Shown here one piece after another: positions 3,773 through 38,682 of a DNA stretch of 53,543 bases; position 1 is the stretch's first letter; each line of letters begins with the position of its first letter. This stretch comes from a virus. The position numbers and the translations under genes were made by a program. The stretch is taken from positions 1 through 53,543 of the IMG/VR virus record IMGVR_UViG_3300047469_000074; one strand, given 5' to 3'. The notes under the pieces were generated by a model, which did not search any database, was not told the origin of the DNA, and saw only the letters and a program-made list of their open reading frames with translations.

Positions 3773-3817
3773 AAAAGCCCCGCCACGGCCCGGAATTCAG
3801 GCTTGGCGGGGCTTTTT
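3773..3817. terminator. Bidirectional Rho-independent terminator between convergent blocks
   Basis: A 9-bp GC stem (GCCCCGCCA at 3777-3785 with TGGCGGGGC at 3804-3812) has A-tracts on the left (3773-3776) and Ts on the right (3813-3817), so it can end transcription from both sides. It sits exactly between the spanin gene on the plus strand and the last minus-strand gene, whose TAA lies inside it. Confidence 0.9.
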
Positions 3818-11380: not shown

Positions 11381-12280
11381 TTAGAAGAGTCCAATCTGGT
11401 CCGGCACAAAGACCGGGGGTTTGTTTTCGATCTCTTTGTTCAGGCGGGTGAACGCGTGGCAGTTATAGGCCCAGCGCGCGACGTACTCGGTTTGCAGCCG
11501 GTGCACGTCAAAGCCTTCTTCTTCGATCATGTCACACACAGCCTTACGCTGCACTGGCGTGATTGTGTCGATGTGCATGTTGAGTTGTTTGCGGGCCGGG
11601 CTGTTGACCGACACGGCAAGCGCTCGGTTGCCCGGAAGCAGGATGGTTCCGTTACCTGCCATCTGCACCCACGACGACGAGTCGACCGAGTACCACGGAT
11701 AGCGCACCATAAGCGAGAGTGTGGTCAAGCCAAACCCGTGCACTTTGATCTTCGCCGTACCGTCCGGGTTGCAGAGGTGCTTCTCCCAGATGCGATCAAG
11801 CCATAGCTTCAACTGGTCGGTCGAAACCATCACCATACCACCGAGCGTCATGTGGTCGTAGTTCTGCACGTACCAATCAAGGTAGCGCTCGTCTTCGCCA
11901 TAGTGGAAGCAGGGCAAAGCGTTCGCCCCGAGCTGCTCCATTACGCGCTGGTTCTGCCACGTCTTGAGCGGGTCGCCAATGCCATCCAGGACCGAAGCCA
12001 CTTCGATGATATCGGCGTTGCGCTTGATGTAGTCGCAGTAACCCGGCAAGTCGATCTCTGCGCCTTTGGTGAATGCGGAGAAGGCGCCCGAGTCAAGGAA
12101 CACCCGGGCGCCATCCTCGCGGATCTTATCGACAAAACTCTGCTTGTGGATGTAGTGGTACGAGTCCAGCAAGTAGCGCACGTCGTCACGAGCCTTCTGT
12201 TCGCGTGGGCTGCACTTCATGTAAGCCGTAGAGCCCTTGCGCAGATTGTTCGTGTACAGGGCCGCGAGGTAGAGCTTCAT
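11381..12280 (-). CDS. dpdA: DpdA-type 7-deazaguanine DNA transglycosylase
   Basis: 299 aa, related to tRNA-guanine transglycosylases but in the short phage form. Conserved features are FLDSGAFSAF (Asp63), VHGFGLTTLSLM (residues 180-191) and YSVDSSSW (Asp200), with two Asp residues placed like the TGT catalytic pair. In the family this enzyme exchanges guanine in DNA for a 7-deazaguanine base, shielding phage DNA from restriction. Its start overlaps the folE stop (ATGA), and queD, queC and queE lie upstream in the same transcript. The substrate here is inferred to be preQ0. Confidence 0.88.
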   Translation of the reverse strand: MKLYLAALYTNNLRKGSTAYMKCSPREQKARDDVRYLLDSYHYIHKQSFVDKIREDGARVFLDSGAFSAFTKGAEIDLPGYCDYIKRNADIIEVASVLDGIGDPLKTWQNQRVMEQLGANALPCFHYGEDERYLDWYVQNYDHMTLGGMVMVSTDQLKLWLDRIWEKHLCNPDGTAKIKVHGFGLTTLSLMVRYPWYSVDSSSWVQMAGNGTILLPGNRALAVSVNSPARKQLNMHIDTITPVQRKAVCDMIEEEGFDVHRLQTEYVARWAYNCHAFTRLNKEIENKPPVFVPDQIGLF

Positions 12281-12894
12281 TTCTGTACGAACGACATGAA
12301 CTCGGCACGCGGGGCCGCATCCTTCATCACGCCCCTCAGCGCGGAGCTAGTGGTCTTGGTGCCAGCCTTGCACACGCCGCGCGACTCCATGCACATGTGC
12401 CGAGCCTTCACAACCACCCCCACGCCTTTCGGGTTCAGGTGGTGCATGATTGCGTCAGCAACTTGCACAGTGATGCGCTCTTGCACTTGCAGGCGCTTGG
12501 CGAAGCAGTCTACCAGCCGGGCGAACTTGGACAGGCCGACGATCTTGCCGTCCGGGATGTAGCCCACCCACGCTTCGCCGAAGAATGGTGTCATGTGGTG
12601 TTCGCAATGGCTGTAGAACGGGATCGGTCCAACCAGAACCATTTCGTCCACGCCGTCCGCGCCGTCTTCAAACGTCTTGAGGATCTGCGCCGGGTCTTGC
12701 TCGTAGCCCTTGGCCCACTCGCCCCAAGCTTTGACCACACGGTGCGGGGTCTCCGCCAGCCCGGAACGCATGGAGTCCGGGTCGATATAGTCCAAGAGCA
12801 CGCGCACGGCTTCGACTGCCCGCATGGGGCTGACCTTCAATGCGCGGTTCTCGCCAACGCGAGCAAGTGTTTGGATGTCTTCTGCGAGCTTCAT
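12277..12894 (-). CDS. folE: GTP cyclohydrolase I
   Basis: 205 aa from the ATG at 12894. It has the full catalytic and zinc set: HCEHHMTPF with Cys97, His99 and His100, then ARHMCMESRGV with Cys168. It converts GTP to 7,8-dihydroneopterin triphosphate, the first step toward preQ0 (and folate). Start chosen because the longer ORF to 12978 lies inside queD and the ATG at 12894 lies two bases past the queD stop. The dpdA gene follows with ATGA overlap. Confidence 0.95.
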   Translation of the reverse strand: MKLAEDIQTLARVGENRALKVSPMRAVEAVRVLLDYIDPDSMRSGLAETPHRVVKAWGEWAKGYEQDPAQILKTFEDGADGVDEMVLVGPIPFYSHCEHHMTPFFGEAWVGYIPDGKIVGLSKFARLVDCFAKRLQVQERITVQVADAIMHHLNPKGVGVVVKARHMCMESRGVCKAGTKTTSSALRGVMKDAAPRAEFMSFVQK

Positions 12895-12896
12895 GG

Positions 12897-13379
12897 TTAG
12901 CGGATGTGATTGGGTTGCGGGAATTCGACGATAGCGGAGTTTGCGCCATGCTCGCGTACCTCGACGCGCGACAGCCAAACGCGGTCGCTATGGCCTTTCA
13001 GCTTCAGCCAGTAGCCGACGTTCCGTGCAATACGTTCGGCGAAGGCTTCGCACCCAACGCCCTCCTCCATCACAACAAGCTGGACAAGCCCGAGGCTGTG
13101 GAGATATCGCATCATTTCCAATTGCGGGTCGTCCCCAGCCACTGCGAGCCTGTGGTCAAACGAGCCGCGCAGAAAGTCTTTGACCTCGCCGAACGAGCCA
13201 AAGTCGATAACCCAGTTACGCGAGTCGAGTTGTAGCGCACTGAACTCGAGAGATACGGCCAGAGCATAGCCATGGATGAATTGGCAATGCGAGCCTGACC
13301 GCCACTGGCGGAAAGCGCACGACAACCCGAAGTCGTGGCCGAACGTCTTAGTCGATTTGTAGATCACGTGGAACCTCAT
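12897..13379 (-). CDS. queD: QueD-like 6-carboxytetrahydropterin synthase
   Basis: 160 aa from ATG 13379 (13385 is an alternative two codons upstream). Motifs are FGHDFGLSCAF (His14, Cys20), SHCQFIHGYAL (His31, Cys32, His36), VIDFG and FDHRLAV. The enzyme makes 6-carboxytetrahydropterin from dihydroneopterin triphosphate. Classic QueD has HGH for the last two zinc ligands; here it is HGY, so the site is altered or uses another ligand. The gene overlaps the end of the DUF2591-like gene by ~32 bases. Confidence 0.82.
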   Translation of the reverse strand: MRFHVIYKSTKTFGHDFGLSCAFRQWRSGSHCQFIHGYALAVSLEFSALQLDSRNWVIDFGSFGEVKDFLRGSFDHRLAVAGDDPQLEMMRYLHSLGLVQLVVMEEGVGCEAFAERIARNVGYWLKLKGHSDRVWLSRVEVREHGANSAIVEFPQPNHIR

Positions 13380-13731
13380 CCCCATATTGCCAGAGCAGGA
13401 AGCAACGCGCCAATGCCATTGACGAACTAGCTTCGTGCTCTGCGCAGTAGATATGAACAAACCCATCATCGCGCTTCACATGGAAGCTCACACGGGCCAT
13501 TGCCCCAGTGTGGTCGATGAAGATCTTGCCTTCGCGCGCCATGCGAAGTAGAACCCGGGCTGTTTGCCGCCAGCGAGTAGACGGGCTGTAAATCTGCTTC
13601 GCCTTGTCTTGCTGCCAGCAAACGAGATGCTCGCCTTGGTTCGACTTACCGATCCGGACCGGCTGCATGAGCACTTGCCCGATCCAGTAGTCCAGCTCGT
13701 AAGCCTTCAGCGCCTTGACTTCACGCGTCAC
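13348..13731 (-). CDS. DUF2591-like phage protein
   Basis: 127 aa from a GTG at 13731 that overlaps the queC stop (GTGA); the longer ORF to 13788 sits inside queC. The start KALKAYELDYWIGQV and the middle YSPSTRW followed by ARVSFHVKRDDGF match the short phage family DUF2591, whose function is unknown. Its position inside the deazaguanine gene run may be a chance insertion or mean a role in that pathway. Confidence 0.75.
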   Translation of the reverse strand: MTREVKALKAYELDYWIGQVLMQPVRIGKSNQGEHLVCWQQDKAKQIYSPSTRWRQTARVLLRMAREGKIFIDHTGAMARVSFHVKRDDGFVHIYCAEHEASSSMALARCFLLWQYGDEVPRDLQID

Positions 13732-14417
13732 GCGAGGTGCTCGATGTATTCGTTCCAGCCTTTCTCGCGCAGCTTGCAGGCCGGGCATTCGCCGCAGCCA
13801 AACCCCCAGTCGTGACGCTCACTGCGGTCGCCTTCGTAGCACGTATGCGAGTGGTCAAGCACAACGCCGAGCACGTCCGCGTCTGCCGCGAGCTTGAACG
13901 TTGCGGCTTTGTTGATAAACATGAGGGGTGTGACAATTTCGATGTTGCTCTCGTAGCCCGCGTTCAGCGTGCGCTCGAGCTGGCGAATGAACACGTCGCG
14001 GCAGTCCGGATAACCGGAGTAGTCCGTCTGGCAAACCCCCGTGTAGATCTGTTGGGCACCAAGCTCTTGCGCTGCGGCGTGCGAGATGGTGAGCATCAGG
14101 GCGTTGCGCGCAGGCACGAACGACGCGGGCAGGCTCTTCAGCCGGCTGTGTTGTTCGCTGACACGGTCAACCGTATTGGTGAGCGCGCTCGTGACCATCT
14201 TGGGCAGGAACGGCAGGTCGACCGTGTAGAAGTCGACGCCGAGCTTTCCGGCAATCACTTCCGCTTGGCGCAGCTCCACCGCGTGACGCTGCCCGTAGTT
14301 GAACCCGATGGCTTGCACGCGGTCTGCGCCGAACACCTTGATCGCGAGGCCGAGGCAGGTAGTGCTATCTTGCCCGCCGCTGAACACTACTACGGCATCT
14401 TTCTTACTGTCGAGCAT
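13728..14417 (-). CDS. queC: QueC, 7-cyano-7-deazaguanine synthase
   Basis: 229 aa from the ATG at 14417 with GGAG seven bases upstream. The PP-loop ATP pyrophosphatase signature is FSGGQDSTT (residues 12-20). The C-terminal zinc site is the CGECPAC cluster with a nearby upstream Cys (HTCYEGDRSERHDWGFGC). It converts 7-carboxy-7-deazaguanine to preQ0 using ATP and ammonia. It follows queE by four bases, the usual pathway order. Confidence 0.95.
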   Translation of the reverse strand: MLDSKKDAVVVFSGGQDSTTCLGLAIKVFGADRVQAIGFNYGQRHAVELRQAEVIAGKLGVDFYTVDLPFLPKMVTSALTNTVDRVSEQHSRLKSLPASFVPARNALMLTISHAAAQELGAQQIYTGVCQTDYSGYPDCRDVFIRQLERTLNAGYESNIEIVTPLMFINKAATFKLAADADVLGVVLDHSHTCYEGDRSERHDWGFGCGECPACKLREKGWNEYIEHLA

Positions 14418-14421
14418 GACG

Positions 14422-15114
14422 TTACTCCATGTTGATGAGCTTGTGGACTTGAAGCCCAAAGGTGTAGCCGTGGCGCATGGCTACGTGAATAGTGGCGTTC
14501 TGGTTGAACGTGTTGATCAGGGGGTCTTTGTCGTCCTGCGGGTTGACGTAGACCATACCCGTGAACTCTGCGTGCGGGCGGGCGGGGCGGACCCCATCCA
14601 ACGCACGTGTGGGCAACCCGTCTTCTTTATCGACGTGTTGATGATTGATGACGTACTTGTACGCGGTGATGTATTTGTACAGGCCCGGGTTGACGCGGCC
14701 TGCCTTGGGGCTGCACACGATGTCCACCAACGCATAGGGGAAGTCTTCCGGTGCCCGCGTGCCATTGGTTTCGATCTGGATGTCATACCCGCTGTCGTGC
14801 AAGCGTTGAACAAGCTGGGACAGGTTCTGCCTGAACGGCTCGCCGCCCGTGAGCACTACCATCGCTTTTGACGGGTGTGCCATGCGCCGTACCACCTCAA
14901 CGACGTCCTGGACAGGCAGCACGTCGCGACCCTGCGTGTACTCGGTGTCGCAAGCTGGGCATTGCAGGTTGCATCCAGCGAGGCGGATAAACACTGCGGG
15001 CCGGCCAACGTGCGGGCCTTCCCCCTGAATGGTGTGAAAGATGGAGTGGATGTCGAGGGCCGAGCCGTTCCCGATAGACGGGCGTTCAATAGGCTGGATA
15101 TTGATTACTTTCAT
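14422..15114 (-). CDS. queE: QueE, 7-carboxy-7-deazaguanine synthase (radical SAM)
   Basis: 230 aa from the ATG at 15114; the longer ORF would start inside the promoter. The radical-SAM cluster is CNLQCPAC (Cys48, Cys52, Cys55), the CxxxCxxC arrangement, with TGGEPF following (SAM-binding GGE). It converts 6-carboxytetrahydropterin to the 7-deazapurine. First gene of the operon, with a TATAAT -10 about 26 bases upstream. Confidence 0.94.
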   Translation of the reverse strand: MKVINIQPIERPSIGNGSALDIHSIFHTIQGEGPHVGRPAVFIRLAGCNLQCPACDTEYTQGRDVLPVQDVVEVVRRMAHPSKAMVVLTGGEPFRQNLSQLVQRLHDSGYDIQIETNGTRAPEDFPYALVDIVCSPKAGRVNPGLYKYITAYKYVINHQHVDKEDGLPTRALDGVRPARPHAEFTGMVYVNPQDDKDPLINTFNQNATIHVAMRHGYTFGLQVHKLINME

Positions 15115-15139
15115 AGTGTCCCCATAGGCGGTAATGCCA

Positions 15140-15145
15140 ATTATA
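15140..15145 (-). promoter_or_regulatory. Promoter -10 for the queE operon
   Basis: A perfect TATAAT at 15140-15145 on the minus strand, ~26 bases before the queE ATG and just after the terminator that ends at 15195. No clear -35 is visible at 16-18 bases upstream, so an activator or a phage-modified polymerase may be needed. Confidence 0.55.
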
Positions 15146-15194
15146 CGCATTAGCCACACGCTCGGCGCACATGGCATCTACAAAAATTTAGAGC

Positions 15195-15232
15195 AAAAAG
15201 AAGCCCCGTCGCATTGGAGTACGAACGGGGCT
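15195..15232 (-). terminator. Rho-independent terminator ending the structured RNA
   Basis: On the minus strand AGCCCCGT (15225-15232) pairs with ACGGGGCT (15202-15209), followed by TCTTTTT (15195-15201). It is preceded by the structured non-coding region and followed by the queE promoter, so it ends the RNA transcript and separates it from the deazaguanine operon. Confidence 0.87.
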
Positions 15233-15860
15233 AGGACGGGTAGAAGCTCTCGGGGGAGGGGCTTCGGTGTGGGCCGACAGTGCCAGCTTGTCTTGAGTGA
15301 TACCGGGGAAACGGATCGCAAGAGTTGGACAAAGCAGGCCCACGCCGAAACCCCCTCGGGGGTGCGGGAAGCTAGTCGCGCACGGGCTTATAAGGACCAT
15401 GCGCCATCAAGCTACTAGGCTTATCAGGCCGTTTGCCATGAGCAGTTGATAAGGCTGCCGCCAGCTTCGGGGAAGAGGTTAGACCCGCCATGGAGGCGAT
15501 GTGCGTTTTCGCGGCAACTGTCGTCGGTACGCACGATCGTGATCCTCGGGTTCGGCTAACCCACTTCCCCGAAGCCCCCTGATCACGTCAAGGAACCTCG
15601 GCCCCGCAGCCACGCTAGGAAATCATCACAGCGAAGCACCCTACCTGTCTGGTGTGCCCGCACCGACTATTGCCCGGTGGCAGGGCGCTTCGCTGTGACG
15701 CCCCCGAAGGGGCGGGATGATTTGATCGGCCTCTTGGCCCCTCCCGGGTCCGCAATACCTGTACCGACTTAGAGCTCGCAGTTCTTAAACTGGTTCCCGC
15801 AAGCATCGCTTCCGTTTTCGTGCCCCGAAGAGCCCCCTAACGATCCAGCGCGCATCCTGG
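15233..15860 (-). ncRNA. Large structured RNA candidate, ~630 nt
   Basis: There is no plausible gene here on either strand, but nearly the whole stretch pairs. Main helices (plus coordinates): 15256-15275 with 15337-15357, 15372-15376 with 15414-15418, 15378-15385 with 15397-15404, 15420-15426 with 15447-15453, 15464-15482 with 15556-15575 (12 bp plus 6 bp, continued inward by 15483-15487 with 15547-15551, 15497-15500 with 15536-15539 and 15501-15505 with 15530-15534), 15620-15627 with 15716-15723, 15628-15642 with 15682-15696. Small hairpins occur at 15700-15713, 15728-15739, 15779-15792, 15801-15811 and 15822-15833. Several pairs are G-U only on the minus strand, and two hairpins have C(UUCG)G loops only on that strand. 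A terminator follows at 15232. It resembles the large phage and bacterial RNAs in scale (GOLLD, ROOL class), but the family is unknown. Confidence 0.75.
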
Positions 15861-15862
15861 AA

Positions 15863-16363
15863 TTACTTGGCCGGGGCAGCAGGCACAACAGCCGCCTTGC
15901 TGGCCTTGGCGGCAGCAGCCGCTGCGTCCTTGGCCTTCTTGTCTTCAGCAGCCTTGGCCTTCTTCTCGGCGTCAGCCTTGGCTTTGGCGTCAGCCTTGGC
16001 CTTCTTTTCTGCATCAGCCTTGGCCTTGGCTTCGTCCTTTTCCTTCTGCTTCGCTTCCTTGGCGGCAGCTTGCACTGCGGCCGAGGTATTCTTCAGGCCG
16101 TAATACTTGCACCAGCGACCGTACTGCGTGGTGATCGTTGCCGGGTTCACGCCTTCCTTCTGGCCCTCGGCGAGCACTTCGCCCCGGGTTGCCGGGCGGC
16201 CGAACTTCTTCGACAGAGCGTCGGCGATCACCCACACCTTACCGGTGGCGCCGGTGGCTTCCTTCGGGCGGGTCACGCCATTGCGTTCATCCTTGGCAAC
16301 CGGGGCCGGTGCCGTCGGTGCGGTGGTCGTTGCGGGGGCTTGCGTGTTGGTTGCGTCCGTCAT
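15863..16363 (-). CDS. Lys/Ala-rich protein with a shared HTH-like domain
   Basis: 166 aa. Residues ~38-95 form a compact domain (VWVIADALSKKFGRPATRGE, then a TTQYGRWCKYYGL end), shared with the next two genes upstream in the same order. The rest (from ~95) is an Ala-Lys tail with a 14-residue unit repeated (AKAKADAEKKAKAD), like histone-H1-type DNA-binding tails. Together these suggest a nucleic-acid-binding protein. Its own promoter candidate lies at 16435-16463, and the structured RNA begins 2-3 bases after its stop, so the two are probably co-transcribed. Confidence 0.8.
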   Translation of the reverse strand: MTDATNTQAPATTTAPTAPAPVAKDERNGVTRPKEATGATGKVWVIADALSKKFGRPATRGEVLAEGQKEGVNPATITTQYGRWCKYYGLKNTSAAVQAAAKEAKQKEKDEAKAKADAEKKAKADAKAKADAEKKAKAAEDKKAKDAAAAAAKASKAAVVPAAPAK

Positions 16364-16434
16364 CTTCTTCTCCAGTGGTAGTGTTGGCCCGTGGTGGCGG
16401 GCGCAGAAAAATTCGGTAAATCGGGAGTAGCTGA

Positions 16435-16463
16435 ATGGTAATGTCCAGCCACTCCGCCGTCAA
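16435..16463 (-). promoter_or_regulatory. Promoter for the 16363 gene and structured RNA
   Basis: On the minus strand TTGACG (16458-16463) and TACCAT (16435-16440) are exactly 17 bases apart, just after the stop of the 16471-17181 gene and ~70 bases before the ATG. This would give the Lys/Ala-rich protein and the RNA their own transcription start. Confidence 0.6.
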
Positions 16464-16470
16464 AGAGTTT

Positions 16471-17181
16471 TTAGATCCCTTGGGCCGACTTCCACTTGCC
16501 ATACTGCGTCGCCGCAGTCGAGTCGTTGATCCCTTCGGCTTCGCACTGTTTCATCACCACGACCCGGAAGTCTTTCAGGTTCAGGCCATCGAGCTTGGTG
16601 TGCCCAGCTTTGGTCATGGCCTCGTCGCAGATCTCCCAGACCCTTGCGGTGGTGCTGCCGGGCTTGGGCCGGGTTGCCGGGCTTGGGGTGCCCCGGTGGG
16701 CCGGTGTGGGCAATGCGCGGCCCCCTGCCCCGTTTGTGCCCGGGGTGGGTGCTGGGGGTACTAGGTGCCCAGCCTCGGCCAGCATAGCCCGCCATTCTGG
16801 GTCCGTAGGGCCGTTTTCAGGCGGCAGGGGCGCAGGGCGGTCCGGGTGCGTTGGGTACAGACCCTGCATCGCATGCTTGTGGGCGGCTTCGAGGGTGGCT
16901 ACAGGCGTCTCGTCGACCTGCAACTCCAATGACCTGTAGTAGCAGGCCCGCAGCATTTCGCCGTAGGGGCGCAGGCCCAAGTCTTCGCCGAACGTGTTCT
17001 TATACAGGCGCATCAAACTCAGCTCGGTGAGGCACGAAAAGGCCCGCACGCACAGGTCGCTAACATGGGTCGACTTCATTGCAAAGTCAGTGTCAGCCCA
17101 CAGGGTCGCGGCCCGGTAGTCATTCGTCCTCTTTACAATCTTGGGGGTCTCGAGATCAATCACAACATAGGTTTCGGGCAT
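16471..17181 (-). CDS. Hypothetical protein with C-terminal shared domain, 236 aa
   Basis: The N-terminal half (ETYVVIDLETPKIVKRTNDY) begins like a small alpha/beta domain. A Pro/Gly-rich linker runs from residue ~120 to ~180. The last ~55 residues (ARVWEICDEAMTKAGHTKLD to STAATQYGKWKSAQGI) repeat the domain found in the proteins at 15863 and 17405. GGAG precedes the ATG at 17181. Function unknown; the conserved TQY-W motif suggests a DNA-binding or oligomerisation module. Confidence 0.78.
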   Translation of the reverse strand: MPETYVVIDLETPKIVKRTNDYRAATLWADTDFAMKSTHVSDLCVRAFSCLTELSLMRLYKNTFGEDLGLRPYGEMLRACYYRSLELQVDETPVATLEAAHKHAMQGLYPTHPDRPAPLPPENGPTDPEWRAMLAEAGHLVPPAPTPGTNGAGGRALPTPAHRGTPSPATRPKPGSTTARVWEICDEAMTKAGHTKLDGLNLKDFRVVVMKQCEAEGINDSTAATQYGKWKSAQGI

Positions 17182-37161: not shown

Positions 37162-38193
37162 ATGCGAAATCAACAAGACCCGTACATCGTTCGCCGCCAG
37201 CCGGTGTTCGACGCGGCTGTCCGGACTGCCTTCGCGCAGATCATCGGTGGCCCCGAAACCATGTTCGGCCCGGGCTACCAGCCGAGCGCCAACGATGCCG
37301 CCAACGGTATCGGCTTCCTCATCTCGCAGCTCGCGTACACCGAAGCACAGGTGTTCAGCGTGATGCGCGAGCCGCTGCAATTCCGGCAGATGATCCCGGT
37401 TTCCACCGCTGCCGGTGAAGGTGCCGAGGTGATCCGCTACGAAACCACCGACAACGTGGGTCGCGGCAAGCGTATCAGTGCCTCGGGCAAGGACATCCCG
37501 ATGGCGAACGTGCTGGACGGCGACGCCACGATGCCCATCGTGCTCGGTGGTATCGGGTACGAGTACAACACCGAAGAGCTGCGCAAGGCTGCTTTCCTGC
37601 GCCGGCCCCTGCCGACGCGCCGCCTGAACGCCGCGATGGACGCTTACGAGCGCCACCTGAACGACGTCGCGCTGAATGGCGAAGACAACCTGCCGGGCTT
37701 CATCAACAGCCCGCAGATCGCCAGCGGCAATGCACCGAACGGCGCGTGGACTGCGGCCGACGCTGCCAAGATCCTCGCCGACCTGAACTTCGGCATCATG
37801 AAGATCTGGGACGCGACGGCCAAGACCGACGTTGTGACCGATATCGCGCTGCCGAACGACGAGTACGCGCTGATTGCCACGACGCCGATGAACGGCTACC
37901 AAGACAAGACCATCCTGGAATGGCTGCTCGAGCGCAACATCGCGCGCATCGAACGCAACCAGACCATCAATATCACGGCTGTCAGCTCGCTGAAGACCGC
38001 TGGTTCGGGTGGCACGTCGCGCGCGGTGTTCTACGTCAAGCGTGACGACCGTCTGGTGATGCATCTGCCGATGCCCCTGCGTTTCCTCGCTCCGCAACCT
38101 GTCGCTCTGTCGATGCAGGTTCCGGGCGAGTACAAGTACAGCGGTGTCGAATGGTACTACCCGCAGTCGGCGTACTACATGGACGGCATCTAA
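37162..38193 (+). CDS. Major capsid protein (DUF2184 type)
   Basis: 343 aa. PEAMFGPGYQP-like start region (GGPETMFGPGYQP), LAYTEAQVFSVMREPLQFRQ, TTDNVGRGKRISASGKD and a long beta-rich C-terminus fit the DUF2184 HK97-fold capsid family. A strong terminator follows, raising its expression relative to the neck genes. Confidence 0.9.
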   Translation: MRNQQDPYIVRRQPVFDAAVRTAFAQIIGGPETMFGPGYQPSANDAANGIGFLISQLAYTEAQVFSVMREPLQFRQMIPVSTAAGEGAEVIRYETTDNVGRGKRISASGKDIPMANVLDGDATMPIVLGGIGYEYNTEELRKAAFLRRPLPTRRLNAAMDAYERHLNDVALNGEDNLPGFINSPQIASGNAPNGAWTAADAAKILADLNFGIMKIWDATAKTDVVTDIALPNDEYALIATTPMNGYQDKTILEWLLERNIARIERNQTINITAVSSLKTAGSGGTSRAVFYVKRDDRLVMHLPMPLRFLAPQPVALSMQVPGEYKYSGVEWYYPQSAYYMDGI

Positions 38194-38230
38194 GGCTTCA
38201 AGCGTTTCACCCGCCGTTGATGTAGCCGAG

Positions 38231-38271
38231 GCCCGGGCAGTGTGGACAACCCACCTCGCCCGGGCTTTTTT
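38231..38271 (+). terminator. Rho-independent terminator after the major capsid gene
   Basis: GCCCGGGC at 38231-38238 pairs with the same palindrome at 38258-38265, with an inner weaker stem, followed by six Ts (38266-38271). Typical placement after a highly expressed capsid gene; neck and tail genes must be reached by read-through or another promoter. Confidence 0.88.
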
Positions 38272-38295
38272 CTTCTTATCTAGTTGGAGATCAAC

Positions 38296-38682
38296 ATGGC
38301 AAAAATTCGCCTCCTGAACGCATCGCAAGCCCCGATTCACCTGAACGCATACGCCAACGACGGCACTCTCCAGACTGCCGTCATCCCTGCTGCCCGTGGC
38401 ATCCTGCCGGGCGAGGCAATGGTTGACGAAAGCCTGCTCGACGCGCTGCGCAAGAAAGAAGATGCGCCGACCAAGGCCCACTTCGAATCCGGCCGTCTGC
38501 GCGTCGGCTCGCAAGCCACGGTTCCCGACGAGCCGGCCCCGCTGGTGCCGGTGCCCGAACAGACCGCGCCGGAAGCTCCGGTTGTGCCCCCGGTGCCCGC
38601 CGCGCCGGCCGACAACGAAGTGCCTGAAGTTTCGAGCAATACCCCCGCCGACGCGCCGTGGGCCACGGGTAACGCGAACTAA
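38296..38682 (+). CDS. Pro-rich virion-associated protein, 128 aa
   Basis: Start at ATG 38296 with GGAG six bases upstream. The N-terminal ~60 residues (KIRLLNASQAPIHLNAYAND) are a small beta domain; the rest is a Pro/Ala/Val linker (PVVPPVPAAPADNEVPEVSS). Between capsid and neck genes it is probably a head fibre or head-completion protein. No family recognised. Confidence 0.65.
   Translation: MAKIRLLNASQAPIHLNAYANDGTLQTAVIPAARGILPGEAMVDESLLDALRKKEDAPTKAHFESGRLRVGSQATVPDEPAPLVPVPEQTAPEAPVVPPVPAAPADNEVPEVSSNTPADAPWATGNAN

Follow-up and report, generated by a model that had tools for sequence, protein, structure and literature searches.

The gap between a gene for a Lys/Ala-rich protein and queE in a bacterial virus almost certainly gives rise to a folded RNA, as a related phage keeps the fold though the paired letters have changed. 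The virus is represented by a 53.5-kb record (the whole stretch analyzed, 53,543 nucleotides, is called the window here), and the non-coding gap occupies 15195 to 15862 on its minus strand, or ~670 bases to the end of a terminator. We consider it fairly probable that the product is an RNA undescribed in Rfam and the open-access literature, encoded by a Queuovirinae-like siphovirus at the 3′ end of a minus-strand operon and acting in trans as a stand-alone "ornate" RNA.

The locus and its neighbors

The gene content and gene order of the window match those of the subfamily Queuovirinae and its kin, the phages compared being Pseudomonas phage NP1 and Sphingomonas phage MMDA13. No phage in the collection has proteins that are more than distantly related to those of the window, and all polymerase and terminase matches are below 60% identity. 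On the minus strand, the order is helicase, small genes, Lys/Ala-rich protein, queE, queC, queD, folE, Tgt/DpdA-like transglycosylase, clamp, and polymerase. The 7-deazaguanine (queuosine-type) cluster within this series, at 11381 to 15114 (queE, queC, queD, folE, and the Tgt/DpdA-like gene), suggests that guanines in the DNA of this phage are modified. The features that flank the RNA are as follows.

15863..16363, minus strand: upstream gene, encoding a 166-aa protein with a Lys/Ala-rich tail; phrog_18634 (unknown function)
14422..15114, minus strand: downstream gene queE, the first of the 7-deazaguanine cluster; the listed open reading frame (ORF) is 14422-15177, and the start that matches the homologue is at 15114
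15140..15145, minus strand: TATAAT between the terminator and queE, kept in the homologue as GCGCCG-17-TATAAT

Two adjacent proteins encoded at 15863-17181 on the minus strand, one of which has the long Lys/Ala-rich tail, have a C-terminal domain in common and both match phrog_7864 and phrog_18634; a Pfam search with the two returned no match above the cutoff. Elsewhere in the window, at 3776-3813, a strong terminator (GCCCCGCC...GGCGGGGC) flanked on both sides by T tracts is bidirectional and probably separates convergent transcripts.

The region folds more stably than shuffled sequence

An earlier note on this DNA, made from the letters alone, had named several long helices and proposed a shuffled-sequence control. 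The helices (15682-15698 with 15626-15642, 15556-15575 with 15464-15482, and the 15378-15404 stem) are present at those positions, and the minus strand of 15195-15860 folded at −314.4 kcal/mol, compared with −270.7 ± 7.0 kcal/mol for dinucleotide shuffles (z = −6.3), with none of 20 shuffles as good. The plus strand of the same interval was also unusually stable (z = −4.7), since long perfect stems fold on both strands. The closing terminator that had been reported is a genuine intrinsic terminator (stem 15202-15232, T tract 15195-15199). As for the extent, the earlier note had given 15233-15860; this interval is indeed structured, but the true 5′ limit is at ~15862, beside the upstream stop codon, and a large hairpin (H3, 15257-15355) had gone undescribed.

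We also scanned the whole window for stability in 240-nt tiles on both strands, with 12 shuffles per tile (668 tiles). The six tiles that start at 15201, 15361, and 15521 (both strands, together covering 15201-15760) all ranked among the top 12. Isolated stretches elsewhere, for example at 37601, 38081, and 9441, scored equally high, but the other high-scoring tiles formed no comparable run on both strands. The unusually stable tiles of the stretch 37601-38320 include a strong terminator on the plus strand, which ends at 38266, shortly past the major head protein gene.

The proposed RNA is made up of the following parts, in which "homologue" refers to the related sequence described in the next section.

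15195..15862, minus strand: whole proposed structured RNA, from the upstream gene's stop codon to the terminator T tract (fold z = −6.3; homologue at L003:4363-4926; no codon-position bias)
15717..15862, minus strand: 5′ domain, poorly conserved and, by alignment and helices, longer than that of the homologue
15699..15714, minus strand: UUCG hairpin (CGCCCC-UUCG-GGGGCG), identical in sequence in the homologue
15626..15698, minus strand: hairpin H1, arms 15682-15698 and 15626-15642; 9 of 17 pairs compensatory in the homologue
15577..15623, minus strand: core strand A (AUUUCCUAGCGUGGCUGC, GGGCCG, GUUCCUUG), nearly invariant; includes a small hairpin at 15577-15593
15464..15575, minus strand: hairpin H2, outer 7 pairs invariant and inner pairs swapped for compensatory ones (5 of 16)
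15404..15463, minus strand: core strand B (GGCGGCAGCCUUAUCA, CUGCUCAUG, AACGGCCUGAUAAGCCUAGUA, UUGAUGG), proposed partner of core strand A
15378..15404, minus strand: small hairpin H4 (GCGCAUGG/CCGUGCGC); the homologue has a hairpin of other sequence at the same place
15257..15355, minus strand: hairpin H3, with a conserved inner part (UGUCC ... CCCCGGU ... GGCACUG); 3 of 17 pairs compensatory
15195..15232, minus strand: intrinsic terminator, outer stem invariant and inner pairs changed compensatorily

A related phage keeps the architecture with compensatory changes

A comparison with homologues from related phages had likewise been suggested. A scan with QueE led to one close relative, L003 (IMG/VR 3300010214_000002, 54 kb), whose QueE is 86% identical. 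The gap between the same two genes in L003 (4363-4926) holds a related sequence of ~560 nt at the same place as the RNA of the window (~667 nt), so that the two sequences span ~560 to 670 nt. It folded with a z score of −10.0, again with none of 20 shuffles as good. Conserved blocks occur in the same order in both sequences (CCCGCCCCUUCGGGGGCGUCA; AUUUCCUAGCGUGGCUGC; GUUCCUUG; CAGGGGGCUUCGG; CCGAAGCUGGCGGCAGCCUUAUCA; CUGCUCAUG; AACGGCCUGAUAAGCCUAGUA; UUGAUGG; AGCUUCCCG; CCCCGGU; GGCACUG; and the outer terminator stem), and between them sit hairpins whose arms differ in sequence. A terminator with identical outer sequence follows the RNA in each.

Base pairs in H1, H2, and H3 were counted from the conserved ends, ungapped and in an anchored register. 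Counted in this way, H1 has 17 of 17 pairs in the window and 15 of 17 in L003, H2 has 14 of 16 and 16 of 16, and H3 has 15 of 17 and 16 of 17. Sliding one arm of these hairpins by 1 to 6 bases as a register control gave 14 to 67% pairing. Compensatory changes account for 17 of the 50 pairs (9 in H1, 5 in H2, and 3 in H3); 23 pairs are the same in both phages, 3 have a single changed base, and 7 form in just one of the two sequences. When the terminator was aligned by structure, 3 more compensatory pairs emerged. Free structural alignment of the domains yielded more, but the totals were only modestly above the best shuffles; we considered it too permissive as a test of covariation and used the anchored counts, on whose register the argument thus depends. 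H4, aligned structurally between the window and the homologue, did not score above shuffles. The two core strands escape this kind of test because their sequence hardly varies, and core strand B contains CUUAUCA/UGAUAAG, a 7-pair alternative or pseudoknot. With two sequences known, covariation rests on one comparison (n = 2), in which H1 and H2 receive strong support and H3 moderate support, and which says nothing about the core. The relative keeps the architecture of the window RNA with compensatory change.

The region is non-coding and under selection

The absence of a gene, also claimed from the letters alone, was borne out by the pattern of substitution between the window and L003. In the frame of the longest ORF in the RNA region, substitution rates at the three codon positions were 0.41/0.40/0.39, compared with 0.13/0.09/0.40 in queE, and two other ORFs that overlap the region gave 0.39/0.41/0.45 and 0.54/0.51/0.48. 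This flat distribution rules out a protein-coding explanation; a tblastn match of an overlapping ORF reflects plain DNA similarity rather than coding. The core blocks differ at ~9% of positions (alignment A3, with the H2 stem left out), much less than the 40% seen at third codon positions of queE, which argues that they are under selection for something other than a protein.

The RNA is specific to one lineage and sits at an older boundary

Searches against Rfam, with the window at the gathering threshold and with the region and its homologue at E values of up to 5, identified no convincing family; at E values of up to 5, there were low-scoring matches to snoRNA, microRNA, and PhotoRC-I models, well below their gathering scores. 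BLAST comparison of DNA with 50,697 phages and 72,556 plasmids found no relative of the RNA, and we dismissed as chance a 27-base match to the homologue in these collections. Exact-pattern scans for five RNA motifs in viral contigs and one in genome contigs recovered no member beyond the L003 record; at the other matches, similarity stopped at the ends of the motif. These negatives apply to collections from which records very close to the window may have been withheld. We built a covariance model of the core (R1), in which an artificial AAAA replaces the interior of H2. It recovered the window at 144 bits and, over 50 viral records, found the L003 record and nothing in the other 49. Two short viral contigs, L024 (IMGVR_UViG_3300046665_000040) and L026, encode terminases 100% and 77% identical to that of the window and may derive from this phage or from kin of it, which could lead to more copies of the RNA; these contigs hold the terminase region and not the RNA locus.

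NP1 and MMDA13 keep the gene order and lack the RNA, with 90 nt and 108 nt, respectively, between the same two genes. No other phage with a related QueE (Queuovirinae-like) has a comparable gap; the non-coding sequence at this site is ~135 nt or less, so the RNA is specific to this lineage. A similar-sized gap in Vibrio phage VpKK5 is filled by a protein gene resembling the upstream gene. The short gaps of NP1 and MMDA13 also hold a terminator-like hairpin. This implies that the site of the RNA is an old boundary, and the lineage of the window seems to have acquired or enlarged the RNA upstream of it.

The same observation bears on the main alternative, which is that the region is a cis-acting 3′ untranslated or operon-boundary element that protects the end of the upstream mRNA and sets read-through into queE-queC-queD-folE-dpdA by attenuation or antitermination. 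The location fits, between co-directional genes and with a terminator just upstream of queE, where the relatives have a terminator-like hairpin as well. Moreover, we found no promoter-like site at the 5′ end of the RNA, which makes it probable that the RNA is the 3′ part of the operon transcript and means that it may be just a long 3′ untranslated region. Several findings count against this alternative. No upstream segment pairs with the 5′ arm of the terminator better than in shuffles, in either the window or L003, so that antitermination by such pairing was rejected and no classical antiterminator switch is visible. The relatives manage with ~90 to 110 nt, and 560 to 670 nt far exceeds what an attenuator needs. 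In addition, because both sequences have a TATAAT in the stretch from the terminator to queE, queE may have a start of its own; this element is a possible separate promoter, with no consensus match for a −35 box. Overall, we regard a purely cis-acting element as rather unlikely, but as an explanation to be taken seriously.

The minus strand is favored by the terminator and the direction of the operon

We infer that the RNA is on the minus strand from its terminator and from the direction of the operon, as folding alone leaves the strand unsettled. The z scores of the whole region favor the minus strand (−6.3 versus −4.7 in the window and −10.0 versus −7.8 in L003), but in L003 the antisense strand has a slightly more stable fold overall (−306.0 versus −301.9). 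In both sequences, the minus strand gives the more stable fold for the core with H2, whereas for H3 alone the plus strand does so, by 7 to 10 kcal/mol. The earlier note had argued for the minus strand on the grounds that G-U pairs exist on that strand only. This holds in part; H3 of the window has one C-A mismatch and H1 of L003 has two A-C mismatches, all of which become G-U pairs when read on the plus strand. Together with the better plus-strand folding of H3, these mismatches make the G-U argument a weak one.

A structured plus-strand RNA, antisense to the operon, would account for the stability of H3 on that strand and for the presence, in both sequences, of a 94-aa plus-strand ORF that overlaps the region. 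We nevertheless hold it to be highly improbable, given the behavior of the core with H2 and of the whole-region z scores, the terminator on the minus strand (the other end of the region has no T run), and the lack of codon-position bias in the 94-aa ORF. Most improbable of all is a DNA-level element (a replication origin or a site of recombination or packaging, with hairpins that work in the form of single-stranded DNA), because, although both strands fold better than shuffles in the window and L003 and A-C mismatches occur alongside G-U pairs, the locus lies inside a co-directional operon, away from the strand switch near 25.5 kb, does not adjoin the terminase gene, is linked to the rest of the genome by no iterated repeats, and is closed on one strand by a conserved transcription terminator.

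A proposed mode of action

On the reading that we favor, a stand-alone RNA acting in trans, the region would form the 3′ end of an early or middle operon transcript (helicase, small genes, and Lys/Ala-rich protein) made from the minus strand, and its own intrinsic terminator would stop that transcript. The RNA might then be released from the transcript or be stabilized through its fold. The nearly invariant two-strand core would join H1, H2, and H3, rigid hairpins of variable sequence and fixed shape, together with the small hairpins. Such an RNA could work in trans as a scaffold, with a factor from the phage or the host binding at the conserved core; alternatively, it could form an RNA-only assembly, as in GOLLD and ROOL.

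A more specific proposal, to which we would give an even chance, is that this is a new class of "ornate" RNA without kinship to GOLLD, ROOL, or OLE. It would act in trans in the course of infection, possibly as a self-assembling particle or in complex with a basic phage protein, and one 7-deazaguanine-modifying lineage would have gained it at the boundary of the modification operon. If the family is independent, its well-defined boundary, its constant position among the genes, and the existence of close relatives without the RNA would offer a natural comparison and a role testable by deletion. Independence would also show that phages evolve or acquire such RNAs repeatedly.

Comparison with known large RNAs

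To our knowledge, very few large structured phage RNAs have been described. GOLLD, often more than 800 nt long and often located near tRNA islands, is expressed during lysis. The window contains no tRNA gene in its 53.5 kb. GOLLD, a large and elaborately folded RNA of phages and prophages, is grouped with ROOL, likewise from phages, and OLE as large ornate RNAs of poorly understood function (PMC12286853). All three form homo-oligomers, which in GOLLD and ROOL are nanocages, and ROOL env-120 has a length of 659 nt (PMC12286853).

The RNA described here resembles GOLLD in being large, elaborately folded, and built of variable and conserved parts in a phage, but it is shorter (~560 to 670 nt), is not matched by the GOLLD model of Rfam (window at the gathering threshold; region and homologue at E values of up to 5), and, in contrast to both GOLLD and ROOL, has no tRNA island around it. 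The likeness to ROOL is one of kind only, in its length (~667 nt, within 600 to 700 nt), its location in a virus, and its several long helices; the ROOL model is likewise unmatched, and known copies of the RNA are confined to one narrow lineage, where the operon context is fixed. Like OLE, it is a large ornate RNA that adjoins protein genes, its neighbor here being basic and possibly nucleic acid binding. Unlike OLE, it is phage encoded, the OLE model does not match it, and relatives that lack the RNA likewise encode proteins of the neighbor's type. With neither an Rfam match nor tRNAs nearby, we do not count it as a member of GOLLD, ROOL, or OLE, although its way of working may resemble theirs. 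The structured RNA and terminator just before queE recall the preQ1-type riboswitches and attenuators found upstream of queuosine genes, but no preQ1 family of Rfam matched the window, the RNA is several times larger, and no antiterminator pairing was found in it. The models for self-splicing introns and RNase P RNA were also unmatched, both in the window and in the region and homologue at E values of up to 5. The earlier note had seen a large structured non-coding RNA, like GOLLD and ROOL in kind and matching neither, and that description has held up: the region matches no Rfam family, and a stable fold, compensatory change, and non-coding sequence in two phages, with the same architecture in the homologue, place it with the large structured non-coding RNAs of phages as a kind.
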